The notes under the pieces were generated by a model. The model did not search any database, was not told the DNA's origin, and was given only the letters and a program-made list of their open reading frames with translations. This document shows positions 5,249 to 36,982 of a DNA stretch of 40,897 nucleotides, one piece after another. The stretch is from Candidatus Saccharimonadota bacterium (GTDB taxonomy: Bacteria; Patescibacteriota; Saccharimonadia; Saccharimonadales; Saccharimonadaceae). Numbering within the stretch: the stretch's first letter is position 1; each line of letters begins with the position of its first letter. The stretch lies in the NCBI GenBank assembly GCA_017512085.1, contig JAFWHD010000001.1:1-40897 (forward strand), read 5' to 3'. Both the position numbers and the translations under genes were made by a program.

Positions 5249-6652
5249 ATGAAAAAGCTCAACACTTCCCCGATTTCGGGTGCACAGGAATTATTACCAA
5301 CCGTTCAGGCCACCTTTGATAAACTCAAAAATCGCATCATAAAGGTCTATAAGCGTCACGGTTATTTCAATATTGAAACTCCATCTATTGAGCGTCTTGA
5401 TGTCCTCACTGCAAAGGCGGGCGGCGACACTGAGAAGCAGATTTATAATGTCATGAAGACTTCCGAGAAAGTTGAACACGCCTCCGAAGGTCTCCGTTTT
5501 GATCACACCGTCCCTCTCGCTCGCTATGTTTGTGCCCACGAGAACGATTTAGATTTCCCATTTAAGGTCCAGCAGACCGGTCTAAACTATCGTGGCGAGC
5601 GCGCTCAGAAGGGCCGTTTCCGTGAATTCTATCAATGCGACATTGATGTCGTCGGCCGCGGTAAGCTCAGTCTTGCCTATGATGCCGACGTCATTATTAC
5701 TATGTTAGATGCTTATTCTACTTTTCATCTTGAGACTCCCGTCCTTGCCCGTATCAGCAATCGCAAGATTCTCACCGGTCTCCTCGCCGCGCTCGGGCTA
5801 GCCGACCACACGAATGAGATTTCCCACATCATTGACCATGCCGAGAAGGTTACCCCCGAACAGACGAAGCTCAGCCTGAAAGATCTAAAACTCACCAAAC
5901 CTCAGGTAGAGACCATTCTTAATTTCATAAATCTCCGCGGCTCGCGCTCCGATGTTATCACTGCCCTAAATAATCTTGAAATTAATAACGACACCTATCA
6001 AATCGGCGTTGAAGAGCTTGACCTCGTCCTCGGGCTACTGGAGTCTTTAGGACTTGGCGATCAGATTTCCGCCGACATGCAAATTATCCGCGGGCTTGAC
6101 TACTACACAGGTACGGTCTTTGAGTTCGTTTTGCCAGAATATAAAAATATCGGCTCCATTGGTGGTGGTGGTCGCTACGATAATCTCACCGCCTACTTCA
6201 GTGACCGCCCATTTCCAGGCGTTGGTGGTTCCATCGGCCTCACTCGTCTCTTCTTCGTTCTTAATGAAAATCATTTGCTAGACACCTCCTCCCAGAGCCT
6301 TCTTGATTACGCCATCATCCCTTTGTCAAACGATGAAATAGAATATGCCTATAACGTCGCTCACGACCTCCAGTCAAATAATTACAGCACTACCGTTATC
6401 GTTACCGACAAAAAACTAAGCGACAAGCTACTCTATGCCGCCAAAGTCGCTGGCGGCGGCATCGTCATCGGCGAAGACGAGATAAAGACTGGCGAGCTAA
6501 AGGCAAAGGACTTCGACACCGGCACCACCTCAGTCATCACCTTCACCTCCAACGACGCCCCCACACCCGCACCAAAACCTGCCACTAATGATGATCACCC
6601 TACTGTGAAACCTGACGAATTCTTCTCCGATGATAATAAATCGTTTTTGTGA
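5249..6652 (+). CDS. hisS: Histidyl-tRNA synthetase
   Basis: Class II synthetase charging tRNA-His in the cytoplasm. Motif 2 (RGERAQKGRFREFYQCD, about residues 115-131), the histidine motifs GLDYYTGTVFEF (about 283) and GGGGRYDNL (about 305) and a C-terminal anticodon-binding domain are visible. The 467-residue length is close to that of other HisRS, with an extra low-complexity tail after about residue 440 (Pro, Ala, Asp, Ser rich). The stop is TGA, showing the standard code. A family I palindromic element begins one base after the stop. The mRNA should be leaderless. Confidence 0.95.
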   Translation: MKKLNTSPISGAQELLPTVQATFDKLKNRIIKVYKRHGYFNIETPSIERLDVLTAKAGGDTEKQIYNVMKTSEKVEHASEGLRFDHTVPLARYVCAHENDLDFPFKVQQTGLNYRGERAQKGRFREFYQCDIDVVGRGKLSLAYDADVIITMLDAYSTFHLETPVLARISNRKILTGLLAALGLADHTNEISHIIDHAEKVTPEQTKLSLKDLKLTKPQVETILNFINLRGSRSDVITALNNLEINNDTYQIGVEELDLVLGLLESLGLGDQISADMQIIRGLDYYTGTVFEFVLPEYKNIGSIGGGGRYDNLTAYFSDRPFPGVGGSIGLTRLFFVLNENHLLDTSSQSLLDYAIIPLSNDEIEYAYNVAHDLQSNNYSTTVIVTDKKLSDKLLYAAKVAGGGIVIGEDEIKTGELKAKDFDTGTTSVITFTSNDAPTPAPKPATNDDHPTVKPDEFFSDDNKSFL

Positions 6653-6653
6653 G

Positions 6654-6794
6654 TTTGAATTACCACTCCATCTGGGACAATTTCCCAAAAAAACACCGGA
6701 AAAGTCAAGTTCACGCTTCATAATAGGACGTAGTCCAGAACTGAACTTTACTTTTCCGGTTTTGGAGGCGTCCCAGATGGAGTTGTAATTCAAA
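6654..6794 (+). repeat. Family I palindromic element, copy 1
   Basis: 141 bp. Outer arms 6654-6678 and 6770-6794 pair at 24 of 25 positions. Inside is the family core: GGGACAATTTCCC, then an inner stem ACCGGAAAAGT.AAGTTCA with TGAACTT.ACTTTTCCGGT, capped by GGAC-GTA-GTCC, and GGAGGCGTCCC on the right. Sits between hisS and ppa. Confidence 0.9.
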
Positions 6795-6855
6795 TACTGT
6801 TATATTGTGATTTTTGTCTCAATAAGTTATAATTAATCCATAACAAGGAGATATT

Positions 6856-15307: not shown

Positions 15308-15327
15308 CAATTTAAGTTTACAATGAG

Positions 15328-15457
15328 GATATATTACCTTTTTGGGACAATTTCCCGAAAAACACCGGAAAAGTCAAGTTCACTTTCTTGTCAGGACTTG
15401 TCCCGAACTGAACTTTACTTTTCCGGTTTTGGAGGCGCCCCAAAAAGGTAATATATC
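15328..15457 (+). repeat. Family I palindromic element, copy 2
   Basis: 130 bp between divergent genes. Outer arms (GATATATTACCTTTTTGGG with CCCCAAAAAGGTAATATATC) differ from those of copies 1, 3 and 4 but still pair. The core, inner stem and GGAC-TT-GTCC cap are as in the family. Confidence 0.9.
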
Positions 15458-15490
15458 ATCTTTTAAGCTAATGACATTATCCTATAAATA

Positions 15491-15505: not shown

Positions 15506-16840
15506 ATGAAATTATCCGAAGAACTTATTTATCGTGGCTTTAATGCCTTGACCACTATAGAAGATCCCGCATCTCTCGATACTAGGAATAGCAAGAAATT
15601 CTATTTCGGTGCTGACCCCTCCGCCGACTCTCTTACCATTGGTAATCTCGCCGCTCTCATGATGTGCGCTTGTTTTGCTCGCCACGGTTACGAGCCATAC
15701 CTGCTTGTCGGTGGCGCCACCGGCCAGATTGGCGATCCGAAGGAAAACGGCGAACGCGACCTAAAATCCATTTCGGAAATCGAGCACAACAAGAAATGTA
15801 TTAAAGAACAAATCGAGAAAGTTATTGTCAGCGCAAGGGATGCGCAAGTAAGCACTGTGTGTTCTGCGGAACATAAAGACTTGGCCAGAGCGGCCCGGAG
15901 CGTGTCCGAAGGACACGCTGTGCCTACTTGCGCATCCTTTACCGTTCTAGACAATCTCGATTGGTTTAAGGACATCAAATACTTAGATTTTCTCCGCGAG
16001 ATCGGCAAAGTCTTTTCCATGACTCAGCTCCTTGACCGCCAATTCGTTGAAAAACGCATCGGCGCAGGTGGTTCTGGCATTTCTTATGCCGAGTTTTCCT
16101 ACACTTTGATTCAAGGCTACGACTATCTTCATCTTTATCGTAAATATGGCATTGACCTCCAGCTCTGTGGTGCCGACCAATACGGTAATTGCACTAGTGG
16201 TATTCATCTCATCAAGCGTCTAGAAGATGCAAATGCTGACGTTTGGTCCACTCCTCTCGTTATTGATCCAGTGACTGGTCGCAAATTCGGTAAATCTGAG
16301 GGGAATGCCATTTGGCTCGCTAGCGAGGATAATGGTTCTGGTAATTACACTTCTATCTTTGACTTCTACCAATTCTGGCTCAATCAGCCTGATTCATCCG
16401 TTGAATATCTCATAAAAATTTACACCACGCTAGAAAAATCCGAGATTGAAGATATTCTCGCACATCACCGCGAACACCCAGAAGAACGTCTCGCCCAAAA
16501 GGCTCTCGCGCACGGTGCCACCGAAGTCGTCCACGGACACGATGCCACTATTGCCATTGAGAATCTTACCCAAATTCTCTTTGACCGCACGACTGACTTT
16601 TCTAGTTTCTCCACCGACGAAATTTCCAGCTTCGCATCCTATCTCCCCACCGCACCAAAAGGTACCCCCCTCGTTGACATCCTCACTATGACCAGCCTCG
16701 CCAGTAGCAAGAAAAAAGCCCGCGAGTTTATCAGCGGTGGCGCCATTTCTATCAATGGCACTAAGGTCACAGACGACATTTCCATAGATCAAATCGCCAT
16801 CGTTAAAAAGGGCAAAAATAAATTCGCCGTAGTCAAATGA
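15506..16840 (+). CDS. tyrS: Tyrosyl-tRNA synthetase carrying an in-frame palindromic insertion
   Basis: Class I synthetase for tRNA-Tyr. The Rossmann fold shows FYFGADPSADSLTIGN (HIGH-region motif, here with TIGN), LVGGATGQIGDP, ISYAEFSYTLIQGYDYL, LCGADQYGN and the KMSKS-equivalent KFGKS; an S4-type RNA-binding domain closes the protein (KKKAREFISGGAISINGTKV). Length is 444. Compared with E. coli TyrRS, the loop before LDNLDWF is about 30 residues longer. The extra part (about residues 110-145) is encoded by a 105-bp perfect-type hairpin whose core recurs between clpP and rnhA. All catalytic motifs are intact. The gene overlaps the next by 4 nt (ATGA). Confidence 0.95.
   Translation: MKLSEELIYRGFNALTTIEDPASLDTRNSKKFYFGADPSADSLTIGNLAALMMCACFARHGYEPYLLVGGATGQIGDPKENGERDLKSISEIEHNKKCIKEQIEKVIVSARDAQVSTVCSAEHKDLARAARSVSEGHAVPTCASFTVLDNLDWFKDIKYLDFLREIGKVFSMTQLLDRQFVEKRIGAGGSGISYAEFSYTLIQGYDYLHLYRKYGIDLQLCGADQYGNCTSGIHLIKRLEDANADVWSTPLVIDPVTGRKFGKSEGNAIWLASEDNGSGNYTSIFDFYQFWLNQPDSSVEYLIKIYTTLEKSEIEDILAHHREHPEERLAQKALAHGATEVVHGHDATIAIENLTQILFDRTTDFSSFSTDEISSFASYLPTAPKGTPLVDILTMTSLASSKKKAREFISGGAISINGTKVTDDISIDQIAIVKKGKNKFAVVK
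15835..15939 (+). repeat. Family III palindromic element, copy 1, in frame inside tyrS
   Basis: Arms of about 33 nt (GGATGCGCAAGTA.GCAC and complement) enclose a 40-nt core from GGAACATAAAGACT to GAGCGTGTCC. The core differs from the copy at 18781-18912 at two positions only, while the arms are unrelated. Length 105 bp keeps the frame and adds 35 residues to TyrRS. Confidence 0.9.
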
Positions 16841-18217: not shown

Positions 18218-18234
18218 AACCAATATTTCCAAAT

Positions 18235-18275
18235 GGGGATTACTACCCTATTTGGGACAATTTCCCAGAAAACAA
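18235..18275 (+). repeat. Family I element, truncated copy 5
   Basis: Only the left part is present: arm ...ATTACTACCCTATTTGGGAC and AATTTCCCAGAAAAC. The inner stem and right arm are missing; the sequence then runs into the 3' end of rnhA. Decayed or recombined copy between convergent genes. Confidence 0.65.
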
Positions 18276-18311
18276 AGTTTTGCCAAGAGAAATGAAATGT
18301 GATTTCTATTT

Positions 18312-18740
18312 TTAGATTTTCGTCCCCATCCTGGCTTTATTCGCCCACTCATCCGCAAGTTCATTATATACTGTGCCCACATGCCCCTTCACCCAAATCA
18401 ATTTTACCTGCCCAGCAGTGTATAACTCATATAATTCCTGAACGATGTCCAGATTCTTGATTGGTCCAGTTTTTTTCTTCCAGCCATTTTTTTGCCACGT
18501 TGGCGCCCATTTTGTCAGCACATTCACCCAAAATTCCGAATCCGTATGTATCTCACATGGTTCCCCACCTGCTTTTTTCATTGCCGCGATTAAGGCTTTC
18601 CCTTCCATTCTAATATTGGTGGAATCTTCTTCCGTCCCCAACATCACCGGCACAGGCACATTATCAACAATTTCTAGCACTGCAAATCCCCCTTTTCCAG
18701 GATTCGGCACTGCACTCCCATCCGTCCAATAAACTTTCAT
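18312..18740 (-). CDS. rnhA: Ribonuclease HI
   Basis: 142 residues. Cleaves the RNA strand of RNA-DNA hybrids (primers, R-loops). The catalytic carboxylates are visible: Asp in YWTDGSAVPNPGKGG (residue 7), Glu in RMEGKAL, Asp in HTDSEFW and Asp in NELADEWAN; the flexible His is in KGHVGTVYNE. Start at 18740 is fixed by TGTTATAAT ending 6 nt upstream. The frame is open for 50 more codons, but that stretch is the family III repeat and would be read only by mistake. Lies downstream of clpP on the same strand. Confidence 0.93.
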   Translation of the reverse strand: MKVYWTDGSAVPNPGKGGFAVLEIVDNVPVPVMLGTEEDSTNIRMEGKALIAAMKKAGGEPCEIHTDSEFWVNVLTKWAPTWQKNGWKKKTGPIKNLDIVQELYELYTAGQVKLIWVKGHVGTVYNELADEWANKARMGTKI

Positions 18741-18780: not shown

Positions 18781-18912
18781 AATATCACCAACTTAAGCAT
18801 ATCTTTAGCTTGGGCAGCAAGATACTTCCAGGAACATAAAGACTCGGCCAGAGCAGCCCGGAGCGTGTCCTGGAAGTATCTTGCAACCAAACATACTTAA
18901 GTTGATGATATT
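18781..18912 (+). repeat. Family III palindromic element, copy 2
   Basis: 132 bp between clpP (stop 3 nt away) and rnhA. Outer arms AATATCA.CAACTTAAG.AT and inner arms GCAAGATACTTCCAGGA pair with their complements; a short unpaired bulge separates them. The 40-nt core is 38/40 identical to that in tyrS and has the same orientation. Confidence 0.9.
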
Positions 18913-25049: not shown

Positions 25050-25115
25050 TATAATATTAAACAAAAAAGAGATTTAATTAAGTTAGTTTTACAAACATTT
25101 GACCTCTTAAGGAAT

Positions 25116-25255
25116 TTTCAACTAATTACCCCATCTGGGACAATCTCCCGGAAAACACCGGAAAAGTCAAGTTCATTATTTTATCAGGACTTGTCCAGAA
25201 CTAAACTTTACTTTTCCGGTTTTGAAGGCGTCCCAGATGGGGTATTAGTTGGAAA
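25116..25255 (+). repeat. Family I palindromic element, copy 3
   Basis: 140 bp between aguA and gpmI. Outer arms TTTCAACTAATTACCCCATC and its near-complement (one bulged T). Same core; cap GGAC-TT-GTCC; inner stem changed to AAGTTCA/TAAACTT. Confidence 0.9.
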
Positions 25256-25277
25256 TATGAAAAATATTTTCACATTT

Positions 25278-26375: not shown

Positions 26376-26404
26376 TTTCTCCTTTCAATATTGGAATTAT
26401 ATCT

Positions 26405-26582
26405 ATTTTAAAAAGATTGGTTTTGTAAGCATTTGTCTAGCCCAAGAAAATTTTGAGAATTTTAGAAAATTATCAGGTGCGAACCGTGAAGACAGCCGTG
26501 AGACATCTGTAATTTTCGTTAAGAAATTCGAAAAATTTTCCTGGCGCGTAAACAACCGCGAACAAAACCAACTTTTTAAAAT
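26405..26582 (+). repeat. Family II palindromic element, copy A
   Basis: 178 bp in the agmatine cluster, starting 4 nt after the antiporter stop (minus-strand view). Outer arms 26405-26426/26562-26582 (TGGTTTTGT end) pair with one bulge; inner arms 26446-26472/26510-26540 pair too. Unpaired motifs (GCATT, CCGTGAGAC, CGTTAA, GGCG.G, ACCGC) are shared with copy B while arm sequences are not. Confidence 0.85.
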
Positions 26583-26586
26583 ATTA

Positions 26587-28050
26587 TTATTTGAGTGATT
26601 TTCTTTTTGTACTACGCGCCAGTTTCGCCTGTTTGTCTTTATACGACATTCGGCAAACCATTATTTCACCTATTACTATACATACCACAGTTGAAATAAT
26701 TAGTGTAGCGTTTCCTTCAATTGCTTCCCATGAAAACTCTGGAATAAGAGTAAAGAATAGTGAAACAATTAGTAAGACCAATGGTACGATACCCATAATC
26801 CATCGCATCGCCGGTCCAACTTTTATCCAATAGCCATCCTTGACTTGCTGACCTTTTTTATGCAGTTTGATAAACGCTGCAAATAGTGGAATGTAAGACA
26901 ATAGCAAACATACAAGTGACAAATCAAAGAATGCCCAGAACATATTTGTTAATTCTTCCGCTTCTGGGAACACATAAGCTAGCACGATACCCGCTACCGC
27001 TAGTACCCCAGCTACGATACCAGTCCAGATGCCCACTACATATGGCACACCATCTTTATTGGTTTTGCGCCACGATTTCGGGAACATTCCATCTCGTGCT
27101 GCGTATGCAATCACCGAATACACACCGAAATTCCATGACGAAATATTTGAAATCAACGTCACAATGAATAGCAATCCTACCGTAATTAAAATCGCTTGAA
27201 TTGCCTCTGCTGCAACTCCCGCATTTGTAAGCAAGATTTCCCACGCATCAAGCACGCCCGTATCAGTCGAGATTTCTGCAAAAGGTGTTCCAACGCCTAA
27301 AGCAAATGACGGCAAGATATAAAAGATAGCAATCAAAACACCACCAAGCAGTATCGCCTGCGGAATTTGCTTCTTTGGATTATCCATATCGTCATAGAAT
27401 GTCCCCACCACCTCAAATCCAAGCATATTAAAGATAATCAGTGATACGAAAGATAACCCCGCCCAATCTATTCCGCCATCTGCGGATGCCAATGGTACTA
27501 AGTCATGCCATGATTCAATTGGATTTGCAGTTCCGTGCGTGAAAAGAATATAAAATCCTAGCACGCCCACACCAGCGAGGATTACAATTTTAAGAATCGC
27601 ACCAATATTTGCCACCCAGTCGGACTGCGAAATTCGCAACATCCCGAGCACCGTCACTAATACGATGTAGGCAACCTGGATGATTAATACAGCGGTCATC
27701 GAAAGTTCAATCCCAAACATCTGCATTAGTAGAGACGTAATGAGATCGGCAAGTGATGCAATCCATAGCGGATAATTCACCCAGTAAAACCAGGCTACTC
27801 TCGCTGCCCATTTTTTTCCAAAGGCTTTCTTAATCCAGGTATACATTCCGCCTTCGGATGGATACTGCGTACCTAGTTCCGCCGAAATAAGTGCATATGG
27901 CACGAAAAACCCAATGAGCATAATCGCCCACCAAATGTACATCGAATTTCCAATCGATGCCGTCGGTGCCACCGCGTCCACGACGAGAATTATACAGACT
28001 GTCGCCAGCACCGCCGAAAACAGCCTGAATTTATATTTTTTCTTTGGCAT
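26587..28050 (-). CDS. APC-superfamily amino acid/amine antiporter, probably agmatine-putrescine
   Basis: 487 residues with about 12 hydrophobic helices and the APC start (FRLFSAVLATVCIILVVDAVAPTASIGNSMYIWW) followed by ISAELGTQYPSEGGMYTWIKKAFG, a typical APC helix 2-3 consensus. Position between aguA and the carbamoyltransferase gene points to exchange of agmatine for putrescine, as AguD does in lactic acid bacteria. That substrate is inferred from context. An AAGGAGG Shine-Dalgarno lies before ATG. Confidence 0.82.
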   Translation of the reverse strand: MPKKKYKFRLFSAVLATVCIILVVDAVAPTASIGNSMYIWWAIMLIGFFVPYALISAELGTQYPSEGGMYTWIKKAFGKKWAARVAWFYWVNYPLWIASLADLITSLLMQMFGIELSMTAVLIIQVAYIVLVTVLGMLRISQSDWVANIGAILKIVILAGVGVLGFYILFTHGTANPIESWHDLVPLASADGGIDWAGLSFVSLIIFNMLGFEVVGTFYDDMDNPKKQIPQAILLGGVLIAIFYILPSFALGVGTPFAEISTDTGVLDAWEILLTNAGVAAEAIQAILITVGLLFIVTLISNISSWNFGVYSVIAYAARDGMFPKSWRKTNKDGVPYVVGIWTGIVAGVLAVAGIVLAYVFPEAEELTNMFWAFFDLSLVCLLLSYIPLFAAFIKLHKKGQQVKDGYWIKVGPAMRWIMGIVPLVLLIVSLFFTLIPEFSWEAIEGNATLIISTVVCIVIGEIMVCRMSYKDKQAKLARSTKRKSLK

Positions 28051-29133: not shown

Positions 29134-29181
29134 ATTCCTCATTATACACTAATGATAAAAAAGCACAAGTATTAAATTTCC

Positions 29182-29359
29182 AGAAGCGAAAAAGTATTTT
29201 TTGCGAGCATTAAACGAACCCGTGAAAAATATGAGAAATTTAGGAAAAAATCCGCAGCGAGACCCCCATCCGGCGTGAGACGCGGTTTTTTCCGTTAAAA
29301 ATTTCTCATATTTTTCCCCGGCGTGGAGTTTACCGCTTGCAAAAACACTTTTTCGCTTC
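29182..29359 (+). repeat. Family II palindromic element, copy B
   Basis: 178 bp, ending 6 nt from the carbamate kinase stop. Outer arms 29182-29207/29336-29359 (AGAAGCGAAAAAGT side) and inner arms 29222-29255/29281-29317 (GAAAAATATGAGAAATTT side) pair almost fully. Same length, layout and orientation as copy A, but different arm sequences. Confidence 0.87.
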
Positions 29360-29365
29360 TACAAT

Positions 29366-30307
29366 TTAATCCTTTATTCTCGTACCAGCTTTCCCAGCAA
29401 GTGCTAATTTGAGATTGTCAATATCAGTAATTATTCCCTCGCCACCAAATTTTGCAAATTTCATCGCTGCTTCTACTTTTGGTAGCATTGAACCAGACTT
29501 AAACTGTCCTTGTTTTTTATATTCTAGTGCTTCAGGAATTGTAAGCGCACCTAACGTCTGCTCATCAGGAGTACCATAATTTATACACGCATTTGGCACA
29601 GCAGTCACCGAGACAAACACATCAGCTTTCACAAGTTCTGCCAATTTTTCTGCCGCATAATCTTTGTCAATTACTGCGTCAATTCCTTTTACTCGTTTTA
29701 ATACGCGAGTACGATATACAGGTACCCCACCACCACCTGCCGCTATTACGATTACTCCATCTTTTACCAGTTCTAATATTGCCTTTTTCTCTACAATATC
29801 CACTGGCTTTGGCGATGCTACTACTCGTCGCCATCCCCGACCCGCATCTTCCTTTACTACCCACTTTTTTTCTCTTGCTAGTTTTTTCGCTTCCACTTCA
29901 CTATAAAACTGCCCAATTGGTTTCGTGGGATTATCAAATGCTGGATCATTTTTATCCACCACGACTTGCGAGACTACTGTTACTACTTTTGGATTCTTTC
30001 TTCCGCGTTTTATAAACGCATTTTCTATCGCCTGTGTCAGCCAATAACCTATCTGTCCCTGACTCATCGCTACCGCTGTTTCTAGCGGCATGGCTGGCGC
30101 TTTTTCTGTTGCACCCGCCTCTTCATGTATAAGAATATTTCCTACCTGCGGACCATTTCCATGCGCGATAACTATCTCATATTTATCCGCCAGTTCCGCC
30201 ACCATTTCGCCCACGGACACCGCTATTTTTTTCTGTGCCTCTGCCGACGCTTCACCGTTTTTTTGCAAAGCATTCCCACCTAATGCTAATACTACTCTTT
30301 TTTTCAT
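29366..30307 (-). CDS. arcC: Carbamate kinase
   Basis: 313 residues, amino acid kinase fold. Transfers phosphate from carbamoyl phosphate to ADP, the ATP-yielding step. N-terminal LALGGNALQKNG, VIAHGNGPQVG, AAGGGGVPV and the C-terminal SGSMLPKVEAAMKF are diagnostic. In this cluster it would be the AguC-type enzyme. Lies 24 nt behind pgi with a GGGAGAT Shine-Dalgarno and also a nearby TATAAT, so it may be read from pgi or on its own. Confidence 0.95.
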   Translation of the reverse strand: MKKRVVLALGGNALQKNGEASAEAQKKIAVSVGEMVAELADKYEIVIAHGNGPQVGNILIHEEAGATEKAPAMPLETAVAMSQGQIGYWLTQAIENAFIKRGRKNPKVVTVVSQVVVDKNDPAFDNPTKPIGQFYSEVEAKKLAREKKWVVKEDAGRGWRRVVASPKPVDIVEKKAILELVKDGVIVIAAGGGGVPVYRTRVLKRVKGIDAVIDKDYAAEKLAELVKADVFVSVTAVPNACINYGTPDEQTLGALTIPEALEYKKQGQFKSGSMLPKVEAAMKFAKFGGEGIITDIDNLKLALAGKAGTRIKD

Positions 30308-31465: not shown

Positions 31466-31533
31466 TTTACCTCCATGTATATATATTGTCATTATAGCAT
31501 ATTCATTCTAAATATATAATATTCGCTACTTTC

Positions 31534-31669
31534 TAGCAATCACCCTATCTGGGACAATTTCCCGGAAAACACCGGAAAAGTCAAGTTCATTATCTCATCA
31601 GGGCTTGCCCAGAGCTAAACTTTACTTTTCCGGTTTTGGAGGCGTCCCAGATGGGGTGATTGTTAGATA
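31534..31669 (+). repeat. Family I palindromic element, copy 4
   Basis: 136 bp between divergent pgi and tRNA-Leu. Outer arms TCTAGCAATCACCCTATCTG and its complement pair over 24 bp, the two differences being G-T pairs. The cap is GGGC-TT-GCCC where other copies have GGAC/GTCC: a compensated change. Confidence 0.92.
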
Positions 31670-31721
31670 ATCCCCATATAATAATCCCAATTATATGATA
31701 TAATATATATTATAATATAAT

Positions 31722-36632: not shown

Positions 36633-36665
36633 ACAAGAGTATAAATTATGGTATAATATATTTAT

Positions 36666-36741
36666 CTGGGATTGGCGCAGTTGGTAGCGCGCACGCCTGG
36701 GGGGCGTGAGGTCGCCAGTTCAAGTCTGGTATCCCAGACCA
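36666..36741 (+). tRNA. tRNA-Pro (GGG anticodon)
   Basis: Acceptor CTGGGAT/ATCCCAG, anticodon stem CACGC/GCGTG with loop CTGGGGG (GGG), encoded CCA; TATAAT box just upstream. A third copy of the trailer unit (c) runs to about 36832. Confidence 0.95.
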
Positions 36742-36850: not shown

Positions 36851-36926
36851 TGGTCAGGGTGATCGGACTTGAACCGACGACCTCAGCGTCCCGAACGCTG
36901 CGCGCTACCAACTGCGCCACACCCTG
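36851..36926 (-). tRNA. tRNA-Pro (CGG anticodon)
   Basis: Acceptor CAGGGTG/CACCCTG, anticodon stem CAGCG/CGCTG with loop TTCGGGA (CGG), encoded CCA. Body closely resembles the TGG tRNA. Converges with the GGG tRNA. Confidence 0.95.
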
Positions 36927-36982
36927 ATACAGCATATTATACCATATTTTATAAAGTTTTCTATATAAAAACATCATTCATG

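Follow-up and report, generated by a model that had tools for sequence, protein, structure and literature searches.

The window analyzed here is the whole stretch of 40,897 nucleotides taken from contig JAFWHD010000001.1 of a Candidatus Saccharimonadota bacterium, whose source assembly (GCA_017512085.1) is a draft of 42 contigs for a genome of 0.70 Mb. It contains tyrS, encoding a tyrosyl-tRNA synthetase (TyrRS), and several palindromic elements, one of which lies inside the gene. The features are as follows:
15506 to 16840, + strand: tyrS, tyrosyl-tRNA synthetase, 444 aa, with in-frame insert (open reading frame; PF00579, E 5.5e-57; TIGR00234, E 8e-82)
15835 to 15940, + strand: palindromic element of family F1, approximately 105 bp, 35 codons in frame (inverted repeat, fold z, absence in relatives)
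15835 to 15855, + strand: left outer arm of the element, copy-specific, AAGGGATGCGCAAGTAAGCAC (arm comparison)
15868 to 15907, + strand: conserved 40-nt core region (genome copies)
15874 to 15902, + strand: minimal core of 29 nt, TAAAGACTTGGCCAGAGCGGCCCGGAGCG, also present in Bifidobacterium (internal loop and apical GGCC-AGAGC-GGCC hairpin)
15920 to 15940, + strand: right outer arm, complementary to its left counterpart (inverted repeat)
18312 to 18740, - strand: rnhA-like ribonuclease H gene adjoining the second F1 copy (PF00075, E 5.2e-30)
18781 to 18912, + strand: second F1 copy, located between rnhA and clpP, of subfamily II with longer arms and with its core at 18837-18865
15312 to 15473: palindrome of family F3 upstream of tyrS, with core and private arms
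6645 to 6805: F3 copy
25106 to 25265: F3 copy
31522 to 31677: F3 copy

The reading frame of tyrS is open from end to end and its matches to TIGR00234 and PF00579 lie well over the cut-off. The arms of the insert (15835-15870 and 15905-15940) comprise 36 nt each, are 83% complementary and enclose a spacer of 34 nt. Folded as single-stranded DNA the element reaches -35 kcal/mol, compared with -18.5 +/- 2.7 kcal/mol for sequences with shuffled dinucleotides, none of 200 folding as well (z = -6.25). An initial annotation of this DNA had described a 105-bp hairpin of 35 codons lying in frame in tyrS (15835-15939), with which both the inverted repeat and the open frame agree. The 40-nt core region occurs six times in the organism's own genome, and the match of 38 of 40 positions reported earlier for an intergenic copy was found again (15868-15907 versus 18831-18870). 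This copy at 18781-18912 has only the core in common with the tyrS element; its arms belong to a different subfamily. Compared with the own genome, the outer arm of the tyrS element matches elsewhere solely its own partner arm.

Solved TyrRS structures possess a loop of approximately 11 residues at the insertion site, compared with approximately 39 residues here, i.e., approximately 28 extra residues, in line with the earlier remark that E. coli TyrRS has about 30 residues fewer here. Most TyrRSs of the same genus align over residues 1 to approximately 109 and approximately 144 to 444 with the segment between absent, and those of other families of the order likewise do not contain it; native loops in relatives typically have 5-16 residues. 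A minority of the same-genus TyrRSs align through the insert and several hold unrelated inserts in that loop. As TyrRSs across the order align on both sides with the segment missing, the sequence comparison indicates that the insertion is real and recent, postdating the split of this lineage from its relatives. The insert is presumably translated as part of TyrRS. The AlphaFold model of the enzyme has a mean pLDDT of 65, the insert (residues 114-144) being among the stretches of lowest confidence; all that the model shows is the lack of a predicted ordered structure for the insert.

The tyrS insert is a member of a family of hairpins of approximately 100 nt, termed F1, in which a near-invariant asymmetric core of 29 nt (TRARGACTTGGCCNNAGCGGCCYGGAGCG) sits on arms of fixed length. 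The core has the shape of an asymmetric internal loop beneath a GGCC/GGCC apical hairpin, and the arms vary in sequence from copy to copy with self-complementarity retained. In the sample of 100 copies, which was gathered with a coding copy as query and is thus biased to coding-type copies, the palindrome length has a median of 100 nt (94-109 nt, 10-90%). When 68 copies are aligned, each of the 18 outer stem pairs shows two-sided variation among the sequences, the whole rod of 37 pairs contains 567 doubly changed cells versus 197 +/- 15 in shuffles, and shifting the pairing partner by one column abolishes the covariation signal. The outer arms of coding copies pair with a median of 0.94, compared with a mean of 0.44 for control arms taken from different copies. 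The alignment is compatible with both a rod and a three-hairpin (cloverleaf) fold; the cloverleaf was rejected as it yields 22 doubly changed pairs versus 30 for the rod, which also fits subfamily II. The ends of F1 palindromes show direct repeats of 2-8 nt, the mark of a target-site duplication, no more often than random pairing does. A search with Rfam covariance models gave no credible match on F1 at E values up to 5 and 2, and a known structured RNA was discarded as identity of F1, there being no Rfam family at these permissive thresholds. Some intergenic copies (e.g., L031, L077, L081, L098, and L125) abut promoters with an extended -10 element (TGNTATAAT), sometimes on both sides.

It had been suggested to search the core in reading frames and intergenic regions of relatives, and copies were found in both. 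Open frames of 150 aa or more that continue as coding sequence to either side enclose 52 of the 100 sampled copies, a fraction that is biased upward because the query was a coding copy. Both orientations are represented among these 52 copies (31 and 21), and 47 of the 52 are in codon phase 2 (binomial p 4.6e-7 for + and 1.1e-6 for -), the other phases also being free of stops in the consensus. The hosts are unrelated housekeeping genes whose frame is kept open, among them lepA, ileS, leuS, topA, tlyA, gatA, tsaD, uvrA, uvrB, priA, the gene of exodeoxyribonuclease I, tgt, der, ksgA, mnmA, tatD, and rlmD, with CSAEHKDLARAARSVSEGHA as the type of F1 insert within housekeeping proteins. Within a single frame, the mnmA gene of genome G069 (L075) carries three palindromic inserts, of which two are F1 and the third is a variant. 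In Bifidobacterium none of ten long open reading frames spanning an F1 copy matches Pfam, so these frames look spurious and the copies intergenic.

Copies inherited at orthologous positions allow the arms to be followed over time. In the 36 species pairs listed the flanks are approximately 73-94% identical and the core 0.90-1.00, and the arms change at approximately the rate of the flanks or faster. Twelve orthologous pairs contain 31 stem pairs that changed on both sides and are still paired, which demonstrates coupled change of the arms, together with 30 single-side changes, 19 of them still paired and 11 broken. This coupling could be caused by template-switch correction or by selection on the hairpin; template switching has been offered as explanation for concerted palindromes elsewhere (PMC6649704).

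F1 was found by DNA search in 51 of 99 genomes of the Saccharibacteria genus, among them Candidatus Nanosyncoccus alces (G001), whose locus L013 equals L187 at 100%; the other named carriers are rumen and gut Saccharibacteria MAGs. With at most two mismatches the core occurs in 27 of 77 genomes of the genus and in none of 218 genomes of other Saccharimonadia genera. It is further present in 54 of 112 Bifidobacterium genomes, including complete ones, and in none of 296 other genomes of the class of Bifidobacterium. When 84,980 species genomes were scanned for the exact pattern, the matches listed all belonged to Saccharibacteria or Bifidobacterium/Bifidobacteriaceae. The simplest reading of this sequence distribution would be a horizontal transfer between the Saccharibacteria genus and Bifidobacterium, in either direction, or a shared unseen source. 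IMG/VR, phage and plasmid collections contained no match to F1, on which ground a phage or plasmid carrier was dismissed. The search for a mobiliser covered the Y1 transposase and reverse transcriptase families. A REP-type Y1 (IS200-like) transposase is encoded in 3 of 99 genomes of the genus, is absent in the genome studied here (G000), and was dropped as mobiliser for this rarity. Reverse transcriptases of the RVT_1 type, present in 60 of 99 genomes, show no association with F1 (Fisher p 0.84), seven element-rich genomes being without it, and were likewise rejected. These RVT_1 enzymes, one to five per genome, possibly belong to diversity-generating retroelements.

Palindromes with unrelated cores and private arms occupy the tyrS loops of three further genomes (G007, G035, and G005), many tsaD loops, including that of the own genome, and loops in other genes and species. 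At least three core types were seen, and the common feature of these families is the architecture and not the sequence. Most of the 30 closest species have an insertion hot spot at the tsaD loop. Family F2, with the motif CCCGTRACGACGGG and private arms, is found in tsaD, ileS and other genes (L313 in tsaD on contig C26 of the own genome; L186, L301, L303, L305, L310, L315, and L284). F3 is represented in the window by the four full copies listed above and a partial one (18222-18300), all outside long reading frames, and has a conserved centre (GGGACAATTTCCC ... ACACCGGAAAAGTCAAGTT) with copy-specific outer arms. Two long nested hairpins (26395-26595 and 29165-29380) have a CGTGAAGACAGCCGTGAGAC-like centre in common and are a possible fourth family. 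Two proline tRNA genes in opposite orientation (36663-36741, anticodon GGG; 36851-36929, anticodon CGG) form another long inverted repeat.

What is gained upon insertion was assessed by searching joined flanks against all 174 genomes of the genus. The second ileS site (L003) measures approximately 130 nt with the insert, compared with a gap of 13-14 nt in most empty orthologs; the net gain of approximately 117 nt is at least the whole palindrome of approximately 112 nt, so both arms arrived with F1 at this site. For the first ileS site and for tyrS, the latter relative to short-loop relatives, the net gain is approximately 87-96 nt for palindromes of approximately 102-105 nt. Judged by these empty sites, F1 seems to have come in with both arms, replacing at most a short native loop. 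The native loops of tsaD vary in length, making these sites less informative, and some "empty" loops hold palindromes that have no core (L119, L304, L306, and L312). An alternative is that only the core (approximately 60-70 nt) is mobile and inserts at the tip of palindromes already present, perhaps remnants of earlier elements, the arms then being target sequence. Such a model would account for loops being common to several families and arms private to each site, and it is in line with the tsaD and tyrS loops holding one core family in one species and another in the next, and with the core-less palindromes at such loops. However, the net gain at the second ileS site with its mostly 13-14 nt gap spans both arms, the near-constant total length is not expected from pre-existing palindromes, and the core-less palindromes can be read equally well as deletion scars of former elements, which they probably are. 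As a general account this model appears unlikely, and at some sites a core may have inserted into a pre-existing palindrome, given the varying native loops and the occurrence of core-less palindromes. Considerably less probable still is that one arm is native target and the other its new reverse complement, formed by snap-back copying around the core. Such an origin was suggested by tsaD, where the downstream arm overlaps the conserved codons FPLL in two species, and by several sites with a net gain approximately one arm short of the palindrome; it is opposed by the uniform arm length, by net gains of approximately 117 nt (second ileS site) and approximately 90 nt (first ileS site, tyrS) for palindromes of 102-112 nt, and by the tyrS arm being without a match elsewhere in the genome save its partner. 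The constant length of the empty ileS orthologs excludes a target-derived arm as general rule, and arms captured from elsewhere in the genome were rejected because nothing but the tyrS arm itself and its partner gave a match.

Taken as a whole, the insert in tyrS is very probably a copy of F1 as a non-autonomous mobile palindrome. Copies within genes sit in protein loops that tolerate extra residues, almost always in one codon phase. The core would be the recognition structure for a mobilising enzyme acting in trans, and selection would purge insertions in other frames and sites, leaving a harmless translated surface loop of 35 residues. The arms would be free of sequence constraint and kept matching by template switching within the hairpin (quasi-palindrome correction), so that they diverge freely with core and length staying fixed, and F1 would have moved between Bifidobacterium and this Saccharibacteria genus. 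Alternatively, the hairpins might be functional structured RNA or DNA, with regulatory, processing or chromosome-organising roles under selection, and the coding copies by-products thereof. The frozen internal loop, the maintained pairing, the many intergenic copies adjoining promoters and the long persistence in intergenic regions of Bifidobacterium would fit such a function; in view of approximately half of the sampled copies lying within unrelated reading frames in both orientations, of the patchy occurrence in approximately half of the genomes and of the lack of an Rfam family at permissive thresholds, it is considered improbable. That the loop is an old native feature of TyrRS or an assembly artefact has a negligible chance: nothing was found in its favor beyond the draft state of the source genome with its 42 contigs, other families of the order and most genomes of the genus do not have the insert, and the same element turns up in numerous independent assemblies as well as in complete Bifidobacterium genomes. 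The alignment of TyrRSs from relatives, proposed earlier as a check on a native loop, thus revealed a loop that is empty or different in nearly all of them, contrary to the conserved native loop that had been named as grounds for refutation.

The Rickettsia palindromic elements (RPE) with which the insert had been compared from the outset are palindromes of approximately 100-150 bp in several families (Ogata et al., 2000, 2002; PMC10969869). According to that source, approximately half of them lie in frame in unrelated metabolic genes with a conserved peptide per family, and their host is a host-dependent bacterium with a reduced genome (PMC10969869). F1 resembles them in its median of 100 nt, in the existence of at least three core types, in the in-frame position in unrelated genes, which applies to approximately half of the copies, in the preferred frame, in the conserved peptide encoded by a family and in the reduced genome of a host-dependent carrier. 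RPE were reported to lose their repeat identity over time (PMC6649704, citing Claverie and Ogata); in contrast to this, coding copies of F1 keep a median arm pairing of 94% with coupled changes. Moreover, the arms of F1 are private to each copy and its core is common to two phyla. The two were compared by their described features, and F1 is not filed as RPE. The REP/RAYT system comprises GTAG and CGTC palindromes, mostly between and some within genes, CGTC REPs also occurring without a dedicated transposase; Bifidobacterium is not named in that paper (PMC3733652). F1 likewise consists of short dispersed palindromes, some in genes, and the absence of a dedicated transposase would be shared with CGTC REPs, but REPs have 20-40 nt versus approximately 100 nt with an asymmetric 29-nt core in F1, the outer ends of F1 bear no fixed GTAG/CGTC tag, and a Y1 transposase is present in 3 of 99 genomes. 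As size, tag and transposase all disagree, F1 is not a REP/RAYT element. With MITEs it shares terminal inverted repeats, the whole of F1 being an inverted repeat, and differs from them in having no target-site duplication. In mitochondria of Nematomorpha perfect inverted repeats lie in coding genes and their arms evolve in concert, for which template switching was discussed (PMC6649704); in that case the two arms code for conserved protein of the host, without description of a mobile core, whereas F1 is an inserted mobile element. Mitochondrial double-hairpin elements and the repetitive hairpin elements (RHE) of sponges are mobile hairpins in compact genomes (PMC2800124), as F1 is a dispersed mobile hairpin in a compact genome, a likeness drawn by description; they differ in belonging to organelle genomes and were studied in intergenic regions.

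F1 is considered a mobile element because of the empty sites in relatives, the dozens of in-frame insertions in unrelated housekeeping genes and the intergenic copies, which lends support to the original proposal of a selfish palindrome resembling RPE; that F1 is selfish we infer. A search of the literature, limited to open-licence papers, found no report of coding palindromes for Saccharibacteria, in agreement with the earlier impression that none existed for CPR bacteria. Within that literature F1 is the first known element of the coding-palindrome kind in CPR bacteria, and one that differs from the RPE of Rickettsia. More tentatively, and with somewhat less than an even chance of being right, it could stand for a class of parasites in which only an asymmetric tip of 29 nt and the total length are specified and the stem is rewritten and self-corrected at each locus, several unrelated tips within one genus using the same loops of essential enzymes and one tip having crossed between Bifidobacterium and its presumed Saccharibacteria epibionts. 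If this were true, there would be a mobilising machinery, so far undescribed, that recognises the shape of a hairpin rather than a terminal sequence.

Selfish in-frame palindromes have so far been a curiosity of Rickettsia, and the case from CPR bacteria shows that they recur in gene-dense genomes of host-dependent organisms. With F1 one can test which loops of a protein tolerate additional sequence, and a frozen core with changing but always matched arms at many orthologous loci constitutes a natural data set for measuring how palindromes are corrected by template switching. Finally, the restriction of F1 to one Saccharibacteria genus and Bifidobacterium, with 0/218 and 0/296 genomes elsewhere, offers a molecular clue to the host of Saccharibacteria from gut and rumen, and to a path by which two distant phyla could exchange DNA.
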